Below, piece by piece: positions 1 to 5,999 of a DNA stretch of 64,000 nt. The first letter of the stretch is position 1. Each line of letters opens with the position of its first letter. Where the stretch lies: contig NZ_PKRT01000001.1 in NCBI RefSeq assembly GCF_002855555.1, positions 1,454,001 to 1,518,000 on the forward strand, written 5' to 3'. The position numbers and the translations under genes were made by a program. Below the pieces are notes generated by a model that did not search any database, was not told the origin of the DNA, and worked only from the letters and a program-made list of their open reading frames with translations. The stretch comes from Novosphingobium sp. TH158 (GTDB taxonomy: Bacteria; Pseudomonadota; Alphaproteobacteria; Sphingomonadales; Sphingomonadaceae).

Positions 1-771
1 CGCGGCGTATCGCGTCCGGCCTATGGCGCCATCAGGATCGGCAGCTCGATCAACGACACGGCATCGCCGGGCACGGTCGGCGGGGGCAACCCGGCTCTGG
101 CACCGGAGTATACCTGGGGCTTGGACTCCAGCCTTGAATGGTATCTTCCGGGCAACGGCATTCTTGCCGTTTCCGGGTTCCACCGCTGGGTGAACAATGT
201 CTTTTACCAGAACACCCAGGCTGTCGGATCCAATGTGTTCAACAGCGGAGGGGTGGATCGCTCGAGCTATCTGCTGACATCCACTTTCAATGGCACCAAC
301 GGTCGCCTTTACGGCGTGGAGATGAACTTCCAGCAGCGGTTCACCTTCCTGCCTTCGCCGCTTGACGGGTTCGGGTTCCAGGGCAACCTGACGCTGCTTG
401 GCGGCAAGTTCGATACGCAGCTGGTAAACGGCAGCCAGCGCAAGGGCATTCCCTTTCCCGGCCTTTCGGACACGATCGCGAACGCATCGCTCTATTTTGA
501 GAAGTACGGCCTCTCGGCACGCGTCAGCTATCAGTGGCGAGGCGACTGGTTCGATTCCCTCGGCGGCTTCGGCAGCGGGGAATCGCGCAGGGGCTATGAC
601 AACCTCGACGTTTCGCTCCGTTACAAGGTCACGGACAATTTCACAGTCTTTGCCGATGCTTCGAACCTGACCAATGCGATGTACGTCGCGTACGAGGACT
701 CGATGGATAAGCCCACCGAAGTCGAGCAAATCGGGGCTCGGTACATGTTCGGCGTCCGGTTCAACTTCTGA
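1..771 (+). CDS. TonB-dependent outer-membrane receptor, C-terminal part (5' end outside window)
   Basis: The frame is open from base 1 and gives 256 residues of a TonB-dependent receptor beta-barrel; the plug and signal peptide lie off the left edge. Support is the run of alternating aromatic/polar strands, the late segment DNLDVSLRYKVTDNFTVFADASNLTN typical in style of the last barrel strands (VSLRYK and NLTN are the readable landmarks), and the terminal GVRFNF ending in Phe, the usual BAM recognition signal. Such receptors import siderophores, vitamins, glycans or hydrophobic substrates. The secreted metallohydrolase that follows 88 bases later on the same strand may share its operon, so the substrate could be an ester or phospho-compound rather than iron. 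The substrate is unknown. Confidence 0.9.
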   Translation, partial: RGVSRPAYGAIRIGSSINDTASPGTVGGGNPALAPEYTWGLDSSLEWYLPGNGILAVSGFHRWVNNVFYQNTQAVGSNVFNSGGVDRSSYLLTSTFNGTNGRLYGVEMNFQQRFTFLPSPLDGFGFQGNLTLLGGKFDTQLVNGSQRKGIPFPGLSDTIANASLYFEKYGLSARVSYQWRGDWFDSLGGFGSGESRRGYDNLDVSLRYKVTDNFTVFADASNLTNAMYVAYEDSMDKPTEVEQIGARYMFGVRFNF

Positions 772-858
772 AGAACCGGAATGAGCTTTCACCATAGCCC
801 CTAGTCGCTTGTGCCGAAGAGGCCCCAGAAATCGATTTTCCCTGAAAGGATGCTTCCA

Positions 859-2397
859 GTGAACACCAACGCCAGAGCACGCAGCCTTGTTGCAATCTGC
901 GCCTTTGCCATTGCCATCGCCTCTGCGCCGGCTGCCTACGCGCATGGTCGCCATGTGCCGTCGCCTGCGGAGGGAAGCTCGGCACCTGCGACCGTCTCCA
1001 GCGATTTGCCGGTTCCGAAAGATGCGCGGTGGCTCGCCGGCGATCACCATGTGCACAGCCGCTTCAGCGTCGGCTACGATGCCAAGACGACACCGCCGAC
1101 GCCCATCATGGGAGCGGACGCAGCCTATCCCATTCCGATGAACGCAGTGATGGCGCGCCGCCATGGCCTGTCGTGGATGGTTTCTACCGATCACGGCGGA
1201 CCGCTTCACAGCAAGGTCAATCATGACCACGCCTACCCCGAACTGCTGAGCTCGCGCGCTGCCGTGCCGGACCTCGTGCAATTCTTCGGAATGGAATTCG
1301 ATAGTCCCGCCGCCGACCATTCCAGCATCGTTGTTCCTGCTGGTCCGGACGAGGCTGCTCGACTGCGTTCGATCGAGGAGGCCTTCAACGCCCGTGAAGC
1401 GTTTCCGTCCGACCCTGCGCGCGACACCGAACCGCGCATGGTCGAAGCACTGAAAGCGATGGATGCGCAAAGACCCAAGCCTGTCCTGTTCGCACACCAT
1501 CCATCGCGATCGGCGACCGCGCTGGGGCAGTACGGTGCAACAACACCGGCAGAGCTGCGCAACTGGAACGATGCTGCTCCCGAGGTCGCCATCGGCATGG
1601 AGGGGGCGCCAGGTCATCAGGCAGCCGCGCAGATGCGCCAGCGCTTCGGCGCATCGGCCCATGCCGCCTTCTTCAAAGGTCGCCCGCGCGGTGCCTATGG
1701 CAAGTTCCCAACCATGGGCGGCTATGACCAGATGACTGCCCGCGTTGGCGGTTTCTGGGACTCGATGCTGGGCGAAGGGCGCCGGTGGTGGATTACGGCC
1801 AATTCGGATTCGCACATTCACTGGACCGACGGCGGCGCGGATTTCTGGCCCGGTGAATATTCCAAGACCTATGTCCTTGCCGAAGCTACGCACGATTCAA
1901 TTCTTGCCAGCATGCGGTCCGGACGCATCTTCGTAACGACCGGCGACCTTGTCTCTCGCGTCGATTTTTCCGCGCATGCGGGCTCGTCGAGCGCGATTAC
2001 GGGTGGCTCGCTCGCCTTCGAGAAGGGTAAGGATATTGTCCTGAAGATCAGGCTTCGCGATCCTTCCGGTACCAACGCGAACGGCGACAATCCTGTGCTC
2101 TCGCGGGTGGACGTGATCCTTGGCCGGGTCAAACAGCCGCTGGCGGATCGCAGCGTGGACAGCAATCCGACGACTTCGGTTGTTGCCCGCTTCACTGCAG
2201 CGAACTGGACCCGTGACGGCGAGGACATCGTCATCGAACACAAAATCCCCGGCCTGTCCGGTGATGCCTACGTCAGGGTTCGCGGCACGAACACGAACGA
2301 GCTTGAGCCGCAACCGGACACCGAAGGTGAAAGCCCGTGGGCAGACCTGTGGTTCTATACCAACCCGATCTTCCTGAAGGTCGCCAAGAAGGGCTGA
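859..2397 (+). CDS. Secreted CehA/McbA-like PHP-domain metallohydrolase
   Basis: This is a probable exported metal-dependent hydrolase of 512 residues. Residues 1-28 form a signal peptide ending AYA before His29. PHP-type metal motifs are visible: HVH at 64-66, DH at 111-112, HHPS near 212 and NSDSH at 315-319, in the order expected of CehA/McbA relatives, some of which hydrolyse carbamate esters. I chose GTG 859 because GAAAGGA at 844-850 lies 8 bases upstream; ATG 850 and GTG 811 are in frame but poorly spaced. The gene follows the receptor at 1-771 on the same strand, which suggests coupled uptake and hydrolysis. The substrate is not evident and phosphoesterase activity is also possible. 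Family assignment rests on motifs only. Confidence 0.8.
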   Translation: MNTNARARSLVAICAFAIAIASAPAAYAHGRHVPSPAEGSSAPATVSSDLPVPKDARWLAGDHHVHSRFSVGYDAKTTPPTPIMGADAAYPIPMNAVMARRHGLSWMVSTDHGGPLHSKVNHDHAYPELLSSRAAVPDLVQFFGMEFDSPAADHSSIVVPAGPDEAARLRSIEEAFNAREAFPSDPARDTEPRMVEALKAMDAQRPKPVLFAHHPSRSATALGQYGATTPAELRNWNDAAPEVAIGMEGAPGHQAAAQMRQRFGASAHAAFFKGRPRGAYGKFPTMGGYDQMTARVGGFWDSMLGEGRRWWITANSDSHIHWTDGGADFWPGEYSKTYVLAEATHDSILASMRSGRIFVTTGDLVSRVDFSAHAGSSSAITGGSLAFEKGKDIVLKIRLRDPSGTNANGDNPVLSRVDVILGRVKQPLADRSVDSNPTTSVVARFTAANWTRDGEDIVIEHKIPGLSGDAYVRVRGTNTNELEPQPDTEGESPWADLWFYTNPIFLKVAKKG

Positions 2398-2410
2398 TCG
2401 CCTCGTGCGA

Positions 2411-2445
2411 AGGGGCGGACTGCACCTGCATGTCCGCCTCACCCC
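2411..2445. terminator. Possible terminator between convergent genes
   Basis: A 7-bp perfect inverted repeat (GGCGGAC at 2414-2420, GTCCGCC at 2432-2438) with partly pairing flanks lies between the converging metallohydrolase and ppx genes. There is no strong T-tract, so termination is only a guess from position. Confidence 0.35.
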
Positions 2446-2449
2446 TGCT

Positions 2450-3952
2450 TTAGTCAAGCGCCTTACGTGTCTGCAGCACCGCTTCGAGGCCAAGGTGATT
2501 GGCCAGAGCCGAAAGGTCGCGTTGCACGGCTTCAACCGCAAGGGCCGCGGCGTCCGGAGCCAGCTCCAGAACGAGCGAATGGGCCGTCCGTGTCAGGTCG
2601 CTCGCCCGGATCAGCGGAAGGGCGCAGCCCGTCAGGCGTCGGCACAAGCGGATGGCGAGGCCAAGTGTTACAGCCTCCTGTAACAGGCCGGCCGGCACCA
2701 GCCGTGTCACGACTTCCGGCAGGCTGCGATCACAATGCGCCAGGAGGCACGCCGCGAGGGCTGCCCGCTGCGCTGTGTCCAGGCTGATCCAGCGCTTGTG
2801 CAAGGCCCATTCGAGGATCGTATCCGCCCTGAGGTTCGGTTCGATCCGCATGGAAGCCAGCGCAAGGGAAATCGCCGCGGAAGCGATAGGGGGCGGCATC
2901 TGCCGCTCCGCATCGAATAAGGGATCGATCCATCGCGTGAATGCATCGGAAAGATCGCGGGAAATGCCGAGCTGGAGCGTGAAGGCCTCTACTCCGTCGA
3001 GCAGGGGATCGCGTTCCCTCATCTTCGGCGAAAGAGTGGCATGGACCAGCCCCTCGCGAAGCCCCCATGCGGAAAATATCAACCGGTGGGGCTGCAATGC
3101 CTGGATAAGCGCAGCCAGCAGAGCGGCGGCCTGCGGCACCATCGCCAGCCGGGAAGCGGAGACGCCGGGAACCGAAAGCTGCGACTTCGACCGCACCAGC
3201 CTTCGGCACGCGGACAGGGCCTCTTCAGGATCCATCCCGAACCCGTGCGGATCGTCCAGCGGCAAGCCCCCCCGATGCATGACATGGCGCGCAAAGGCGC
3301 GGAATGTTCCGCCAACAAGGTAGAGTGTCTCGCCGCTTCGACCACTCCAGCCCTGCCCCGAAAGCTGCTTCGTCAATCGCTTGCGGAACCCTTGCTGCCC
3401 CTGCGCAAGCAGGGCCGGCAATCGCAGCGTACCGAACGGCATGGTGATGCCCTGCTTGCAGCCCTTTCCGCCAAGGCGGACGAGTTCGAGGCTTCCGCCG
3501 CCAAGGTCTGCGACAATACCGCACGCGCGCGGGAATGCTGCTGCAACGCCGCTGGCGCTGGCAAAGGCTTCCTCCTCCCCGCTCAACTGGCAGGGCTGCA
3601 AACCGAGCGCGGCTACTGCCGCCAAAAAATCGGCGCCGTTGGCGGCGTCGCGGGTCGCGGCCGTGGCGACCGTCGTAATCCGCGTTACGCCGCGCGCGCG
3701 AAGGATGACAGCATAGCGCGCCAGCGCCGCGAGCGCGGCGTCCTTGCTCCGGCCGGAAATCCGGCCGTCTTCGGCCACACCCCGACCGAGGCGTGCAGTG
3801 ACCTTTTCGTTAAACAGGACGACAGGCGAGCGGGGCGGGCCTCCGAAGATCACCAGCCTGACGGTATTAGACCCGATATCGATTACGGCCTGTTCTTCAC
3901 CCATGCGAGGTCTGCTCCGGGTATGTAGGCTCGGCCGTGGCGCAGCATTCAT
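2450..3952 (-). CDS. ppx: Exopolyphosphatase, Ppx/GppA family
   Basis: The 500-residue product hydrolyses terminal phosphates of inorganic polyphosphate (or pppGpp) in the cytoplasm. The ASKHA fold is evident: [12 protein letters not shown] near residue 26 is the phosphate-1 loop and [12 protein letters not shown] near 146 the second phosphate loop. The C-terminal third is helical, as in the HD-like extension of longer Ppx proteins, and the length matches that class. The ATG at 3952 overlaps the stop of the upstream chimeric gene as ATGA, indicating translational coupling; an internal ATG at 3904 (MGEEQ) is an alternative start. Ppx is classically cotranscribed with polyphosphate kinase ppk, and the upstream gene keeps only the C-terminal part of that kinase, so this phosphatase may now lack its usual partner here. 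Confidence 0.93.
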
Positions 3953-4884
3953 GCAGGATCGCGCTTGAGTGCCAACTTGGGGACTTGCCGCCCATTTTCC
4001 AAGGCCGCTCCTCTGCCCGAAAGCGACGGGTTTGTCATGAAATAGCGGTGCAGGTTGAAGGGCTTTTCCACCTTCCCAACCCGGCGATAGCGGCCATCCG
4101 GTTCAAGCACCCAACTTTGCTCCGTATCCAGCAGGTTCGCCATCATCACCTGGTCGAGCACCTGATCGTGCACCGTGCGGTTGCGGATCGGCACGAGAAG
4201 TTCGACCCGGCGATCGAAGTTGCGGGTCATGCCGTCGGCCGAGGAAATGAAGATCTTTGCACGCGGGCTCGGAAGCCGATTGCCGCAGGCGAAGGCCCAA
4301 ATGCGGCTGTGTTCAAGGAAACGCCCGATGATCGATTTGACGTCGATGTTTTCGGACAGCCCGGGGACACCCGGGCGCAGACAACAGATGCCGCGGATGA
4401 CCAGATCTATTTCCACCCCGGCTGCACTCGCGGCGTAAAGTCGGTCAATCAGGCGCGAGTCCGTCAGCGAATTGAGCTTTGCCCAGATCGCAGCCGGCTT
4501 GCCCTTCCGGGCGTTCTCGATCTCCTTGTCGATACAATCATAGAGCTTTTCGCGCAGACCGATCGGCGAGATCGAGAGCAGTTCAGTACGCGGCGGTTCG
4601 ACATAGCCGGTGATGAAGTTGAACAAGCGTCCGGCATCGCGGGCAATGACCGGCACCTCAAGCATGCCAAGCAGCTTTGCCGCCGCAACCCGACCGTGGC
4701 CGGCAACGATATGTCCGGCATCGTCGACCAGAACCGGGTTGGTGAACCCGAAACGTTCGATACTGCTGGCAATCTGTTTCTGCTGCTTGCGCGAATGGGT
4801 TCGCGCGTTCCTCTTTGCGGGCTTTAGCTGATCGAGCCGGCGCATCTCGATCCGGCCATGGATCTGGGGTTGGGAGGCGGTCAT
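3949..4884 (-). CDS. Chimeric protein: ParB-like N-terminal domain fused in frame to C-terminal polyphosphate kinase fragment
   Basis: A 311-residue protein of two unrelated halves. Residues about 12-79 are a ParB/Srx-like domain ([18 protein letters not shown], then [18 protein letters not shown]), the type usually leading phage or plasmid ParB-methylase proteins. Residues about 81-305 match the C-terminal domains of Ppk1: [44 protein letters not shown] and the SSADGMTRN segment. Ppk1 is normally near 700 residues; here the N and H domains and the first catalytic domain, including the autophosphorylated His (H435 in E. coli), are missing, while His192 corresponds to the second conserved His. 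The junction is near base 4640. AGGAG lies 7 bases before the ATG, and the stop overlaps ppx. Kinase activity is unlikely. It may be a real deletion fusion or an assembly error. Confidence 0.85.
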
Positions 4885-4899
4885 CGGGATCTCCTGCTT

Positions 4900-5190
4900 C
4901 AGCGACCCCTTAAGATTAGAAAATCGATTACTTTGGCGTCAAGCGACTGAAAAAAGATGAAAACGACCTTCTCAGAACCTTCTCAGAACCCTCTTAGAGG
5001 CGCGTGACTTAACGATACTTTAGCTGTATTTTACGCTATACAATCTCGATCGAAAATACATATGGCCGAGGCGCGCATATCCGGCAGTTCAAAATCGCGC
5101 CTAAAAGTGAAAAATATTTTCAACATACCATCTATATCAACGGAAACATAAATCGGGCCAAATATAGGCGAAGTGACTGCAAGTAATGAT
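4900..5190. other. AT-rich non-coding segment
   Basis: Base composition drops sharply against the surrounding GC-rich genes; for example only 19 of the 60 bases at 5101-5160 are G or C. I see no credible coding frame. It contains the 11-bp tandem repeat and probably the promoter of the chimeric gene. The composition suggests foreign origin, perhaps the leader of the mobile element that donated the ParB-like domain. Confidence 0.6.
4968..4996. repeat. Tandem 11-bp repeat upstream of the ParB-PPK chimera
   Basis: CTTCTCAGAAC occurs twice without a gap (4968-4978, 4979-4989), followed by a partial third copy CCTCTTAGA. It lies about 85-105 bases upstream of the chimera ATG. Short phased repeats of this kind often bind a DNA-binding protein; autoregulation by the ParB-like domain is only inference. 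Confidence 0.6.
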
Positions 5191-5294
5191 GCGCAGAAAA
5201 TCCGTCATCGATGCCCGGTGCCGACACCGGAACATAATGTGATTCGCGGGCGGTCAGGAGCGGCCCCAGCCGTGCTCCAATAGTTGCTCACCAA

Positions 5295-5592
5295 TCCCAC
5301 CCTTGTCCCGGGTGGGGCAACGATCGTCCCGCCTTGCACGCCCTCTGTCCCAAGAGATTGGACATGCATCCCGGGTAGCGCGATTACCGTCCCGCTTCTG
5401 CGCTGCTGAATCCCGCACAGCAGCCTGCCAATCCCACATTTGCTGACCGGAATCCCGGCTTTATTGCCTGAATCCCGGGTAAAGGAGCTGGTTTGGCGCT
5501 GTCTGATGCACTGGCCTCCCTGCTCCGGTGGTTTCAATTCCCTGTTCGCGCAGCATGAACTCCCTGTTCCTGATGCAACGGAATCTCCTAAG
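5295..5592. repeat. Array of TCCC boxes spaced 21-22 bp
   Basis: TCCC, usually as rTCCCg, begins at 5306, 5327, 5348, 5369, 5390, 5411, 5432 and 5453, exactly 21 bp apart, then at 5473 (20 bp), 5517 (44 bp), 5539 and 5561 (22 bp each), with a weaker TCTCC at 5584 and an out-of-phase box at 5295. The bases between boxes are not conserved. No gene is credible here. Read on the minus strand it resembles the degenerate CAGGGAATT-type arrays that give NREF/QGI-rich pseudo-ORFs in alphaproteobacteria (recalled, not searched). Confidence 0.75.
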
Positions 5593-5657
5593 AACGACAG
5601 AAATCTGCGGCTTAAGGCGGGAATTCGGCCGCAACGTGTGCGGAAGAAATGCGAGAA

Positions 5658-5685
5658 TTCCCTGTAAATAGCGCGGAACAGGGAA
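5658..5685. repeat. 8-bp inverted repeat TTCCCTGT/ACAGGGAA
   Basis: TTCCCTGT at 5658-5665 is mirrored by ACAGGGAA at 5678-5685 with a 12-base spacer. The same TTCCCTGTT word occurs singly at 5538-5546 and, as CTCCCTGTT, at 5560-5568. It closes the periodic array and shows the element in both orientations. Confidence 0.65.
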
Positions 5686-5758
5686 AATCAGGCGTGAGAC
5701 CCGTTCGCTCGGGACTGCGTCGCGCACCAGTCATTCAGCAGAACCTGCAGCCGAAATG

Positions 5759-5790
5759 GTTTCCCCTTTGGGGGCCGATATCTGGGCGAC
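5759..5790. repeat. Dispersed module, copy 1 (TTTCCCCTTTGGG-GCCG)
   Basis: This stretch matches the one at 13548-13579: 14 identical bases (GTTTCCCCTTTGGG), then GCCG-TATC and a similar tail with single substitutions. Both lie in non-coding DNA rich in TCCC words. The rest of the gap from 5691 to 5999 holds nothing else I can identify. Confidence 0.5.
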
Positions 5791-5999
5791 GTTTCCGTCG
5801 GTTACGAGCCGGCTTTAAGCGCCTGCGGTCAAAGTGGTCTCAAGCGGTCAATTTCAAGATCAGATCCAGACTGGGTATCTCGGCTGGAAATTCGGCTGAC
5901 CGCAGTTGCTGACAAAGCTTCTGTTCGCGTGCTCGAGAGCACTTCACGAAACCGGTCGTTTGGCACTCAGGCCTCTCAGCGAATCTAGCTACCTCCTAA

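Follow-up and report, generated by a model that had tools for sequence, protein, structure and literature searches.

The stretch of DNA analysed here, which we call the window, comprises 64,000 nucleotides of the genome of Novosphingobium sp. TH158 (G000, with the window on its contig C1). Positions 3949-4884 of its minus strand form a single open frame of 311 codons that has an ATG start and contains no stop or frameshift (Table 1). Residues 1-81 of the encoded protein correspond to a ParB/Srx-fold domain and residues 82-311 to the C-terminal (C2) part of polyphosphate kinase 1 (PPK1). Pfam places ParB_N at residues 14-84 (PF02195, E 1.4e-5; the 25.5 bits fall slightly below the cut-off of 26.3 bits, as do the scores of two of the three intact methyltransferases scanned) and PP_kinase_C at residues 103-271 (PF13090, E 2.7e-61). 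The PHROGs matches are to a ParB-like family (phrog_620, residues 7-82, E 5e-28) and to a phage family of DNA methyltransferases (phrog_498, residues 4-82, E 1e-24), both ending at residue 82. A sequence-only reading of this DNA had described the frame as an in-frame chimera of a ParB-like domain and the tail of Ppk1, joined at about residue 79. The domain searches bear out both halves, the estimate of the junction is correct to within about three residues, and a frameshift was looked for at the junction and not found.

Table 1. Features at and around the fusion frame (window coordinates).
Feature	Position	Strand	Basis or remark
ppx (Ppx/GppA), intact frame	2450..3952	-	PF02541, E 4.2e-38; probable start near 3904
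C2 (C-terminal) portion of ppk1, read in the same frame as the ParB piece	3949..4641	-	PF13090; identity with G225; invariant columns
Junction	4636..4650	-	comparison with the G312 methyltransferase and with ppk1 relatives
5' end of the island ParB-N/DNA-methyltransferase gene	4642..4884	-	PF02195; phrog_620/phrog_498; identity with G312; fold
AGGAG, candidate ribosome-binding-like site	4891..4895	-	sequence read directly; precedes the ATG by 6 nt on the methyltransferase side
Upstream flank, end of the methyltransferase module	4885..5736	.	AATCCC-like repeats; TTCCCTGT/ACAGGGAA motifs; co-linearity with G312
Direct repeat of 196 bp	5723..5918	+	188/196 identical; starts with the tRNA-Leu 3' end CGCACCA

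In relatives, homology to PPK1 sets in at about fusion residue 78-80, and among solved structures PPK1 chains are matched by residues 80-254. The histidine of RYLEHDR in the E. coli PPK1 chain 1xdo is aligned with residue 192, in agreement with the earlier reading of His192 as the retained second conserved histidine, which we take to be the residue named His592. The match to 1xdo begins only at chain position 479 and runs onward from there, which confirms that the region of the autophosphorylated histidine, listed as His435 in a table of PMC4400040, has been lost. From residue 78, the tail is about 83% identical to the PPK1 of one relative (G225). It breaks none of 65 columns that are invariant across 113 or 105 relatives (two alignments), 0 of 98 or 1 of 99 near-invariant columns, and 3 of 127 or 3 of 125 columns of at least 90% conservation, a figure near the median of the rows. 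Only one of the 16 positions at which it differs from the residue common to G225, G283, and G318 is near-invariant (P 0.0015 if change is assumed to be uniform). Among pairs of genomes with a tail identity of 0.78-0.84, the mean ppx identity is 0.50 for the 11 pairs that include this genome versus 0.60 for the 727 other pairs; ppx appears here to have changed more than usual relative to the tail, which is the opposite of a relaxed tail. The C2 domain has lost its partner domains, yet PPK1-type constraint on it is full, so a recent cut is the best explanation; had a new role come under selection, the pattern of constraint would presumably differ. The event, which carries no date, looks recent from this absence of decay.

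The parent of the other half can be named with similar precision. Residues 1-81 are 65% identical to an intact methyltransferase of 446 aa in G312, and the full-length relatives of this part are proteins of about 450 aa; the three that were scanned all combine ParB_N with N6_N4_Mtase. The gene that follows the methyltransferase encodes a DUF5681 protein in both relative loci where the next gene was scanned. Window positions 4636-5736 are co-linear with the G312 methyltransferase start and its upstream region (64%, 759 of 1,182 columns), the aligned segment comprising the start of the gene and 850 bp of upstream flank. No conserved column of the ParB core is broken (23 invariant and 8 nearly invariant, 21 rows). 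A structure model has block-mean pLDDT values of 77-96 over residues 11-80, with a predicted ParB core that ends at the junction, and Foldseek with this model returned ParB, Noc, KorB, PadC, and sulfiredoxin folds (E down to 1.7e-6). The model superposes on Noc (7nfu) and a plant sulfiredoxin (6ky4) with an rmsd of 2.0-2.7 A over 75-84 columns; the TM-score by query length is only about 0.24 and many top rows have an rmsd near 15 A because of the low-confidence remainder of the model. Of the two structure models, one gives the ParB core only and the second has no confident prediction of the whole C2 domain, the alignments being shallow. The domain lacks the end that is present in the G312 protein (residues 82-98), and the parts that we take to serve DNA binding and dimerisation in ParB are absent from the fusion.

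Both parents encode Arg-Asp near the join (VPVICLRD in the G312 methyltransferase, xGRDAG or xARDAG in many PPK1 proteins), and because they do so within a few codons of it, the break can be resolved to only about 10 nt; homology of a few bases at most would seem to have been involved. A 25-nt near-repeat spanning the junction (4629-4653 and 4713-4737, 76%) was considered as a recombination site and rejected, since the break is not within the shared part. On the methyltransferase side, TTCCCTGT/ACAGGGAA motifs lie at window positions 5538, 5658, and 5678. The same motifs occur 0.2-1.4 kb upstream of the methyltransferase in all six loci examined, one of which (L105) carries a further copy elsewhere, and are absent from all four other stretches scanned (L100, L108, L241, and L242). 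The flank ends in GGGACTGCGTCGCGCACCA (window 5711-5729). Its end region (window 5517-5736; also in L102-L107 and L246), with the AATCCC-like and TTCCCTGT/ACAGGGAA repeats, is a conserved non-coding region that precedes ParB-N methyltransferase modules. In 66 of 397 family genomes, this one included, there are matches (E up to 0.001) to parts of the 1.2-kb segment 4885-6115, most often to window 5655-5730.

The sequence CGCACCA in the flank is also the 3' end of a tRNA-Leu(GAG) gene (G000:C1:1431199-1431285), which comes after a zinc-ribbon protein gene. The partner of the direct repeat in Table 1 starts at the end of this tRNA gene (G000:C1:1431279), 28.4 kb from the window copy. Together, the copied tRNA-Leu 3' end and the repeat partner at the tRNA gene place the junction at the distal end of a tRNA-Leu island, and the window repeat can be taken as that putative distal end. 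Chromosomal co-linearity with G312 stops at C1:1431292, 7 bases beyond the tRNA. The island contains genes for a CAP12/TIR protein, a NACHT-like protein (scored below the cut-off), a large serine recombinase (L241:16074-17753, PF00239 and PF07508), a TonB receptor, and NTP_transf_5, PqqD, radical SAM, sulfotransferase, and 2OG-oxygenase proteins; within the window it also contains a gene at 811-2397 with no Pfam match, ppx, and the fusion. The 182 bp beyond the tRNA end are also repeated, and plain integration would not give such a repeat.

Islands at this tRNA-Leu(GAG) gene were seen in G000, G318, and G312, making it an island hotspot (G000:C1:1431199-1459918; L241 from 11199 onward, L099, and window 1-5918), and two further genomes (G353 and G222) have methyltransferase genes or pieces of them directly after the same tRNA gene. 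In G318, a recombinase adjoins tRNA-Leu, the methyltransferase and a DUF5681-like gene (named from its sequence start) are found at the opposite end, and a second copy of the tRNA end, flanking letters included, lies 37.8 kb away. The ppk-ppx pair of G318 lies about 14 kb outside its island, and that of the present genome lies between the repeats; in G350, ppk-ppx is roughly 10 kb from a tRNA-Leu gene, with no island end within the 20 kb examined. As to cargo, the CAP12/TIR and NACHT-like genes of G000 adjoin the large serine recombinase and are possible defence genes. The set from L241 19219 onward and L099 2579-10989, namely an asparagine-synthase-like start (recognised by eye), NTP_transf_5, PqqD, a SPASM radical SAM protein, a sulfotransferase, and a 2OG-oxygenase, resembles a peptide natural-product cluster.

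The ppx gene downstream of the fusion breaks none of 81 near-invariant columns. It departs from the consensus at 10 of 130 columns of at least 90% conservation, the fifth most among 106 rows, and sits on the fourth longest of 106 terminal branches. An ATG overlaps the fusion stop by 4 nt, and the conserved part of ppx starts nearer 3904. This ATGA coupling had been read earlier as a kept feature of the normal ppk-ppx context. The argument fails, as an overlap of 4 or 1 nt between ppk stop and ppx start occurs in just 4 of the 75 relatives examined, and three near relatives have a gap of 9-11 nt between the two frames. In the trees of the tail and of ppx, this genome groups with G318, G225, and G283 (97/92 and 91/81), and the rpoB tree places it in a 10-row subclade with G318 and without G225 and G283. 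A horizontal origin of ppk-ppx was considered by comparing these placements, which were not decisive. In G225, G318, and G350 (L100, L108, and L307), ppk1-ppx comes after TonB-receptor-like, phytase-like, and PhoX-like genes (named by eye), perhaps a phosphorus-scavenging cluster; such genes were not seen beside ppx in the window.

Neither missing half was found elsewhere in the 2.98-Mb genome, which is assembled in three contigs and 99.96% complete. A search for a second, complete ppk1, proposed with the sequence-only reading, gave none in the assembly: there is no second tail, PF02503 and PF13089 have 0 matches, and no PPK2 was found. For the 3' part of the methyltransferase, the sole match in the genome is 26% identical and lies in a 407-codon frame elsewhere. 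PF13089 is absent from 10 of 37 Novosphingobium genomes searched (this one included) versus 0 of 24 outside the genus; two of those ten are less than 90% complete and a third (G174) has a tail at a contig end. Two genomes without ppk1 (G172 and G333) have a ppx, 50% and 49% identical to the present one. No PPK1 remnant was found in ten stretches of 10-20 kb around the ppx of tail-less relatives. Seen against the rest of the genus, a partial loss of ppk1 is nothing unusual, the fusion being the trace that it has left. G152 and G318 are very close in rpoB, with branches of just 0.007 and 0 between them (from a partial row for G152), yet ppk1-ppx is present in G318, and neither PPK1 nor this ppx was seen in G152, suggesting either a very recent loss or an incomplete assembly.

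The fusion itself was found in no other genome among the matches listed for 149 family genomes and 195 genus genomes, so that the search for the same junction in relatives, also suggested earlier, came back empty. In the matches listed, those genomes have the PPK1 tail, in most cases within frames of some 700-1,100 codons, or the ParB part, and some have neither. Of the short-frame tails examined, one (G258) is a full gene split by a frameshift and two (G355 and G174) are contig ends, so none of the three is a truncated ppk1 tail; other short frames include those of G117, G293, and G297, near contig starts, and of G025 and G063. The best 80 named loci, which may omit the window's own species and in which the nearest relatives by fusion protein are mostly Novosphingobium, matched the tail only (one from residue 58), with no fusion among the matches listed. 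An exact 32-nt pattern across the junction had 0 matches in viral_contigs, and the literature, at the level of titles and abstract starts (the fusion, ppk1 loss, such islands, and the catalytic histidines), held no account of the fusion among the matches listed.

We consider it likely that the fusion is the scar of a recent deletion that removed ppk1 and by chance left the two remnants in frame, and the cell has probably lost the PPK1 enzyme. A genomic island would have integrated at the tRNA-Leu(GAG) gene, carrying at its distal end a ParB-N/DNA-methyltransferase gene that is followed in relatives by a DUF5681 gene. Illegitimate recombination with little homology may then have deleted the 3' part of the methyltransferase gene, the first two thirds of ppk1, and the intervening DNA, joining the ends in frame, for which the chance is one in three. 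The outcome would be a cell in which neither a PPK1-family nor a PPK2-family polyP kinase is found and in which ppx is left downstream. Because both inner halves are lost, the event would be a deletion and not an inversion. The earlier suggestion of a deletion joining a mobile element to ppk1 holds up in this form, the element being specified as a tRNA-Leu island with a cut ParB-N/DNA-methyltransferase gene. Since the ppk-ppx pair of G318 lies outside the island and the present one between the repeats, one simple deletion from a G318-like order is insufficient, and an extra rearrangement, or an island-borne ppk-ppx, is needed to reach the present order.

A related but unlikely course is that the scar arose through a tandem-duplication or excision-circle joint in the tRNA-Leu array, after which the other copy was lost. 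G318 has its methyltransferase end on the other side of ppx-ppk, and the present order would result if methyltransferase and ppk had been joined by a duplication; the presence of the 196-bp repeat at either end suggests repeated integration or exchange. However, only one tail and one copy of this ppx are left, and the route takes more steps than a deletion. It overlaps with the deletion explanation, so the odds that we attach to the readings do not sum to one.

More doubtful still is an artefact of assembly or population, in which the cell has a complete ppk1 and the junction results from a misjoin. Direct repeats at island ends can mislead assemblers, but the junction lies inside a 2.64-Mb contig, the only repeat found near it is the 25-nt near-repeat described above, and the fused frame is open. 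A misjoin would also normally leave the cut piece elsewhere, and the N-terminal part of ppk1 was found nowhere in the assembly.

We give slightly less credence to a working new protein, the alternative originally offered alongside the scar, in which the ParB/Srx core would bind DNA or a nucleotide and C2 would bind polyP or ATP, for example to tether or regulate ppx. The frame is open behind a ribosome-binding-like site, and translation could plausibly proceed from the methyltransferase start; this open frame, the intact ParB residues with their modelled ParB/Srx core, and the undecayed C2 are also expected of a functional chimera. Against this, the same fusion was not found in a second species among the matches listed, the ParB domain stops short of the end seen in G312, the C2 half has no confident model, and promoter-like sites are near chance (2 found vs 1.3 expected). 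The constraint on the tail is that within PPK1 and can be explained by recency, so that an intact DNA-binding and polyP-binding protein gained no positive support. Least probable of all is a newborn gene whose expressed fusion would bind DNA and polyP or ATP and act on nucleoid or polyP physiology in a cell without PPK1-made polyP.

As a deletion scar, the locus offers a clean and recent-looking case in which island dynamics at a tRNA gene would have removed a conserved stress enzyme, leaving an open fused frame that could be annotated as a new protein. The strain has ppx, and searches for PPK1 and PPK2 found neither, so it offers a natural test of how a cell lives without polyP kinase, in a genus several members of which lack ppk1.

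The fusion resembles four known systems, each in part. To PPK1 (PDB 1xdo and 1xdp; PF13089, PF02503, and PF13090), the likeness covers residues 82-311, with the C2 domain matched by PF13090, H192 aligned as the second conserved histidine, and the invariant columns intact. It differs in that the N and H domains (PF13089 and PF02503) are found neither in the fusion nor in the genome and most of C1, including the autophosphorylated histidine, is missing; such a C2 remnant should not have kinase activity, as far as its domain content tells. With the ParB-N DNA methyltransferases of islands and phages (phrog_498, with a DUF5681 neighbour), the fusion shares the gene start, the ParB core, and the 850-bp flank. 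Here, however, the N6_N4_Mtase domain is absent, ParB_N is cut before its end, and the next gene is ppx instead of one for DUF5681. With ParB, Noc, KorB, PadC, and sulfiredoxin, residues 1-81 share a predicted fold. The setting corresponds to tRNA-integrated islands with a large serine recombinase, having the same repeated tRNA-Leu 3' ends on both sides and a recombinase of its own inside, in a layout like that of G318 and similar to that of G312; it differs from them in that the distal methyltransferase module is broken and ppx and the ppk1 tail lie between the repeats.
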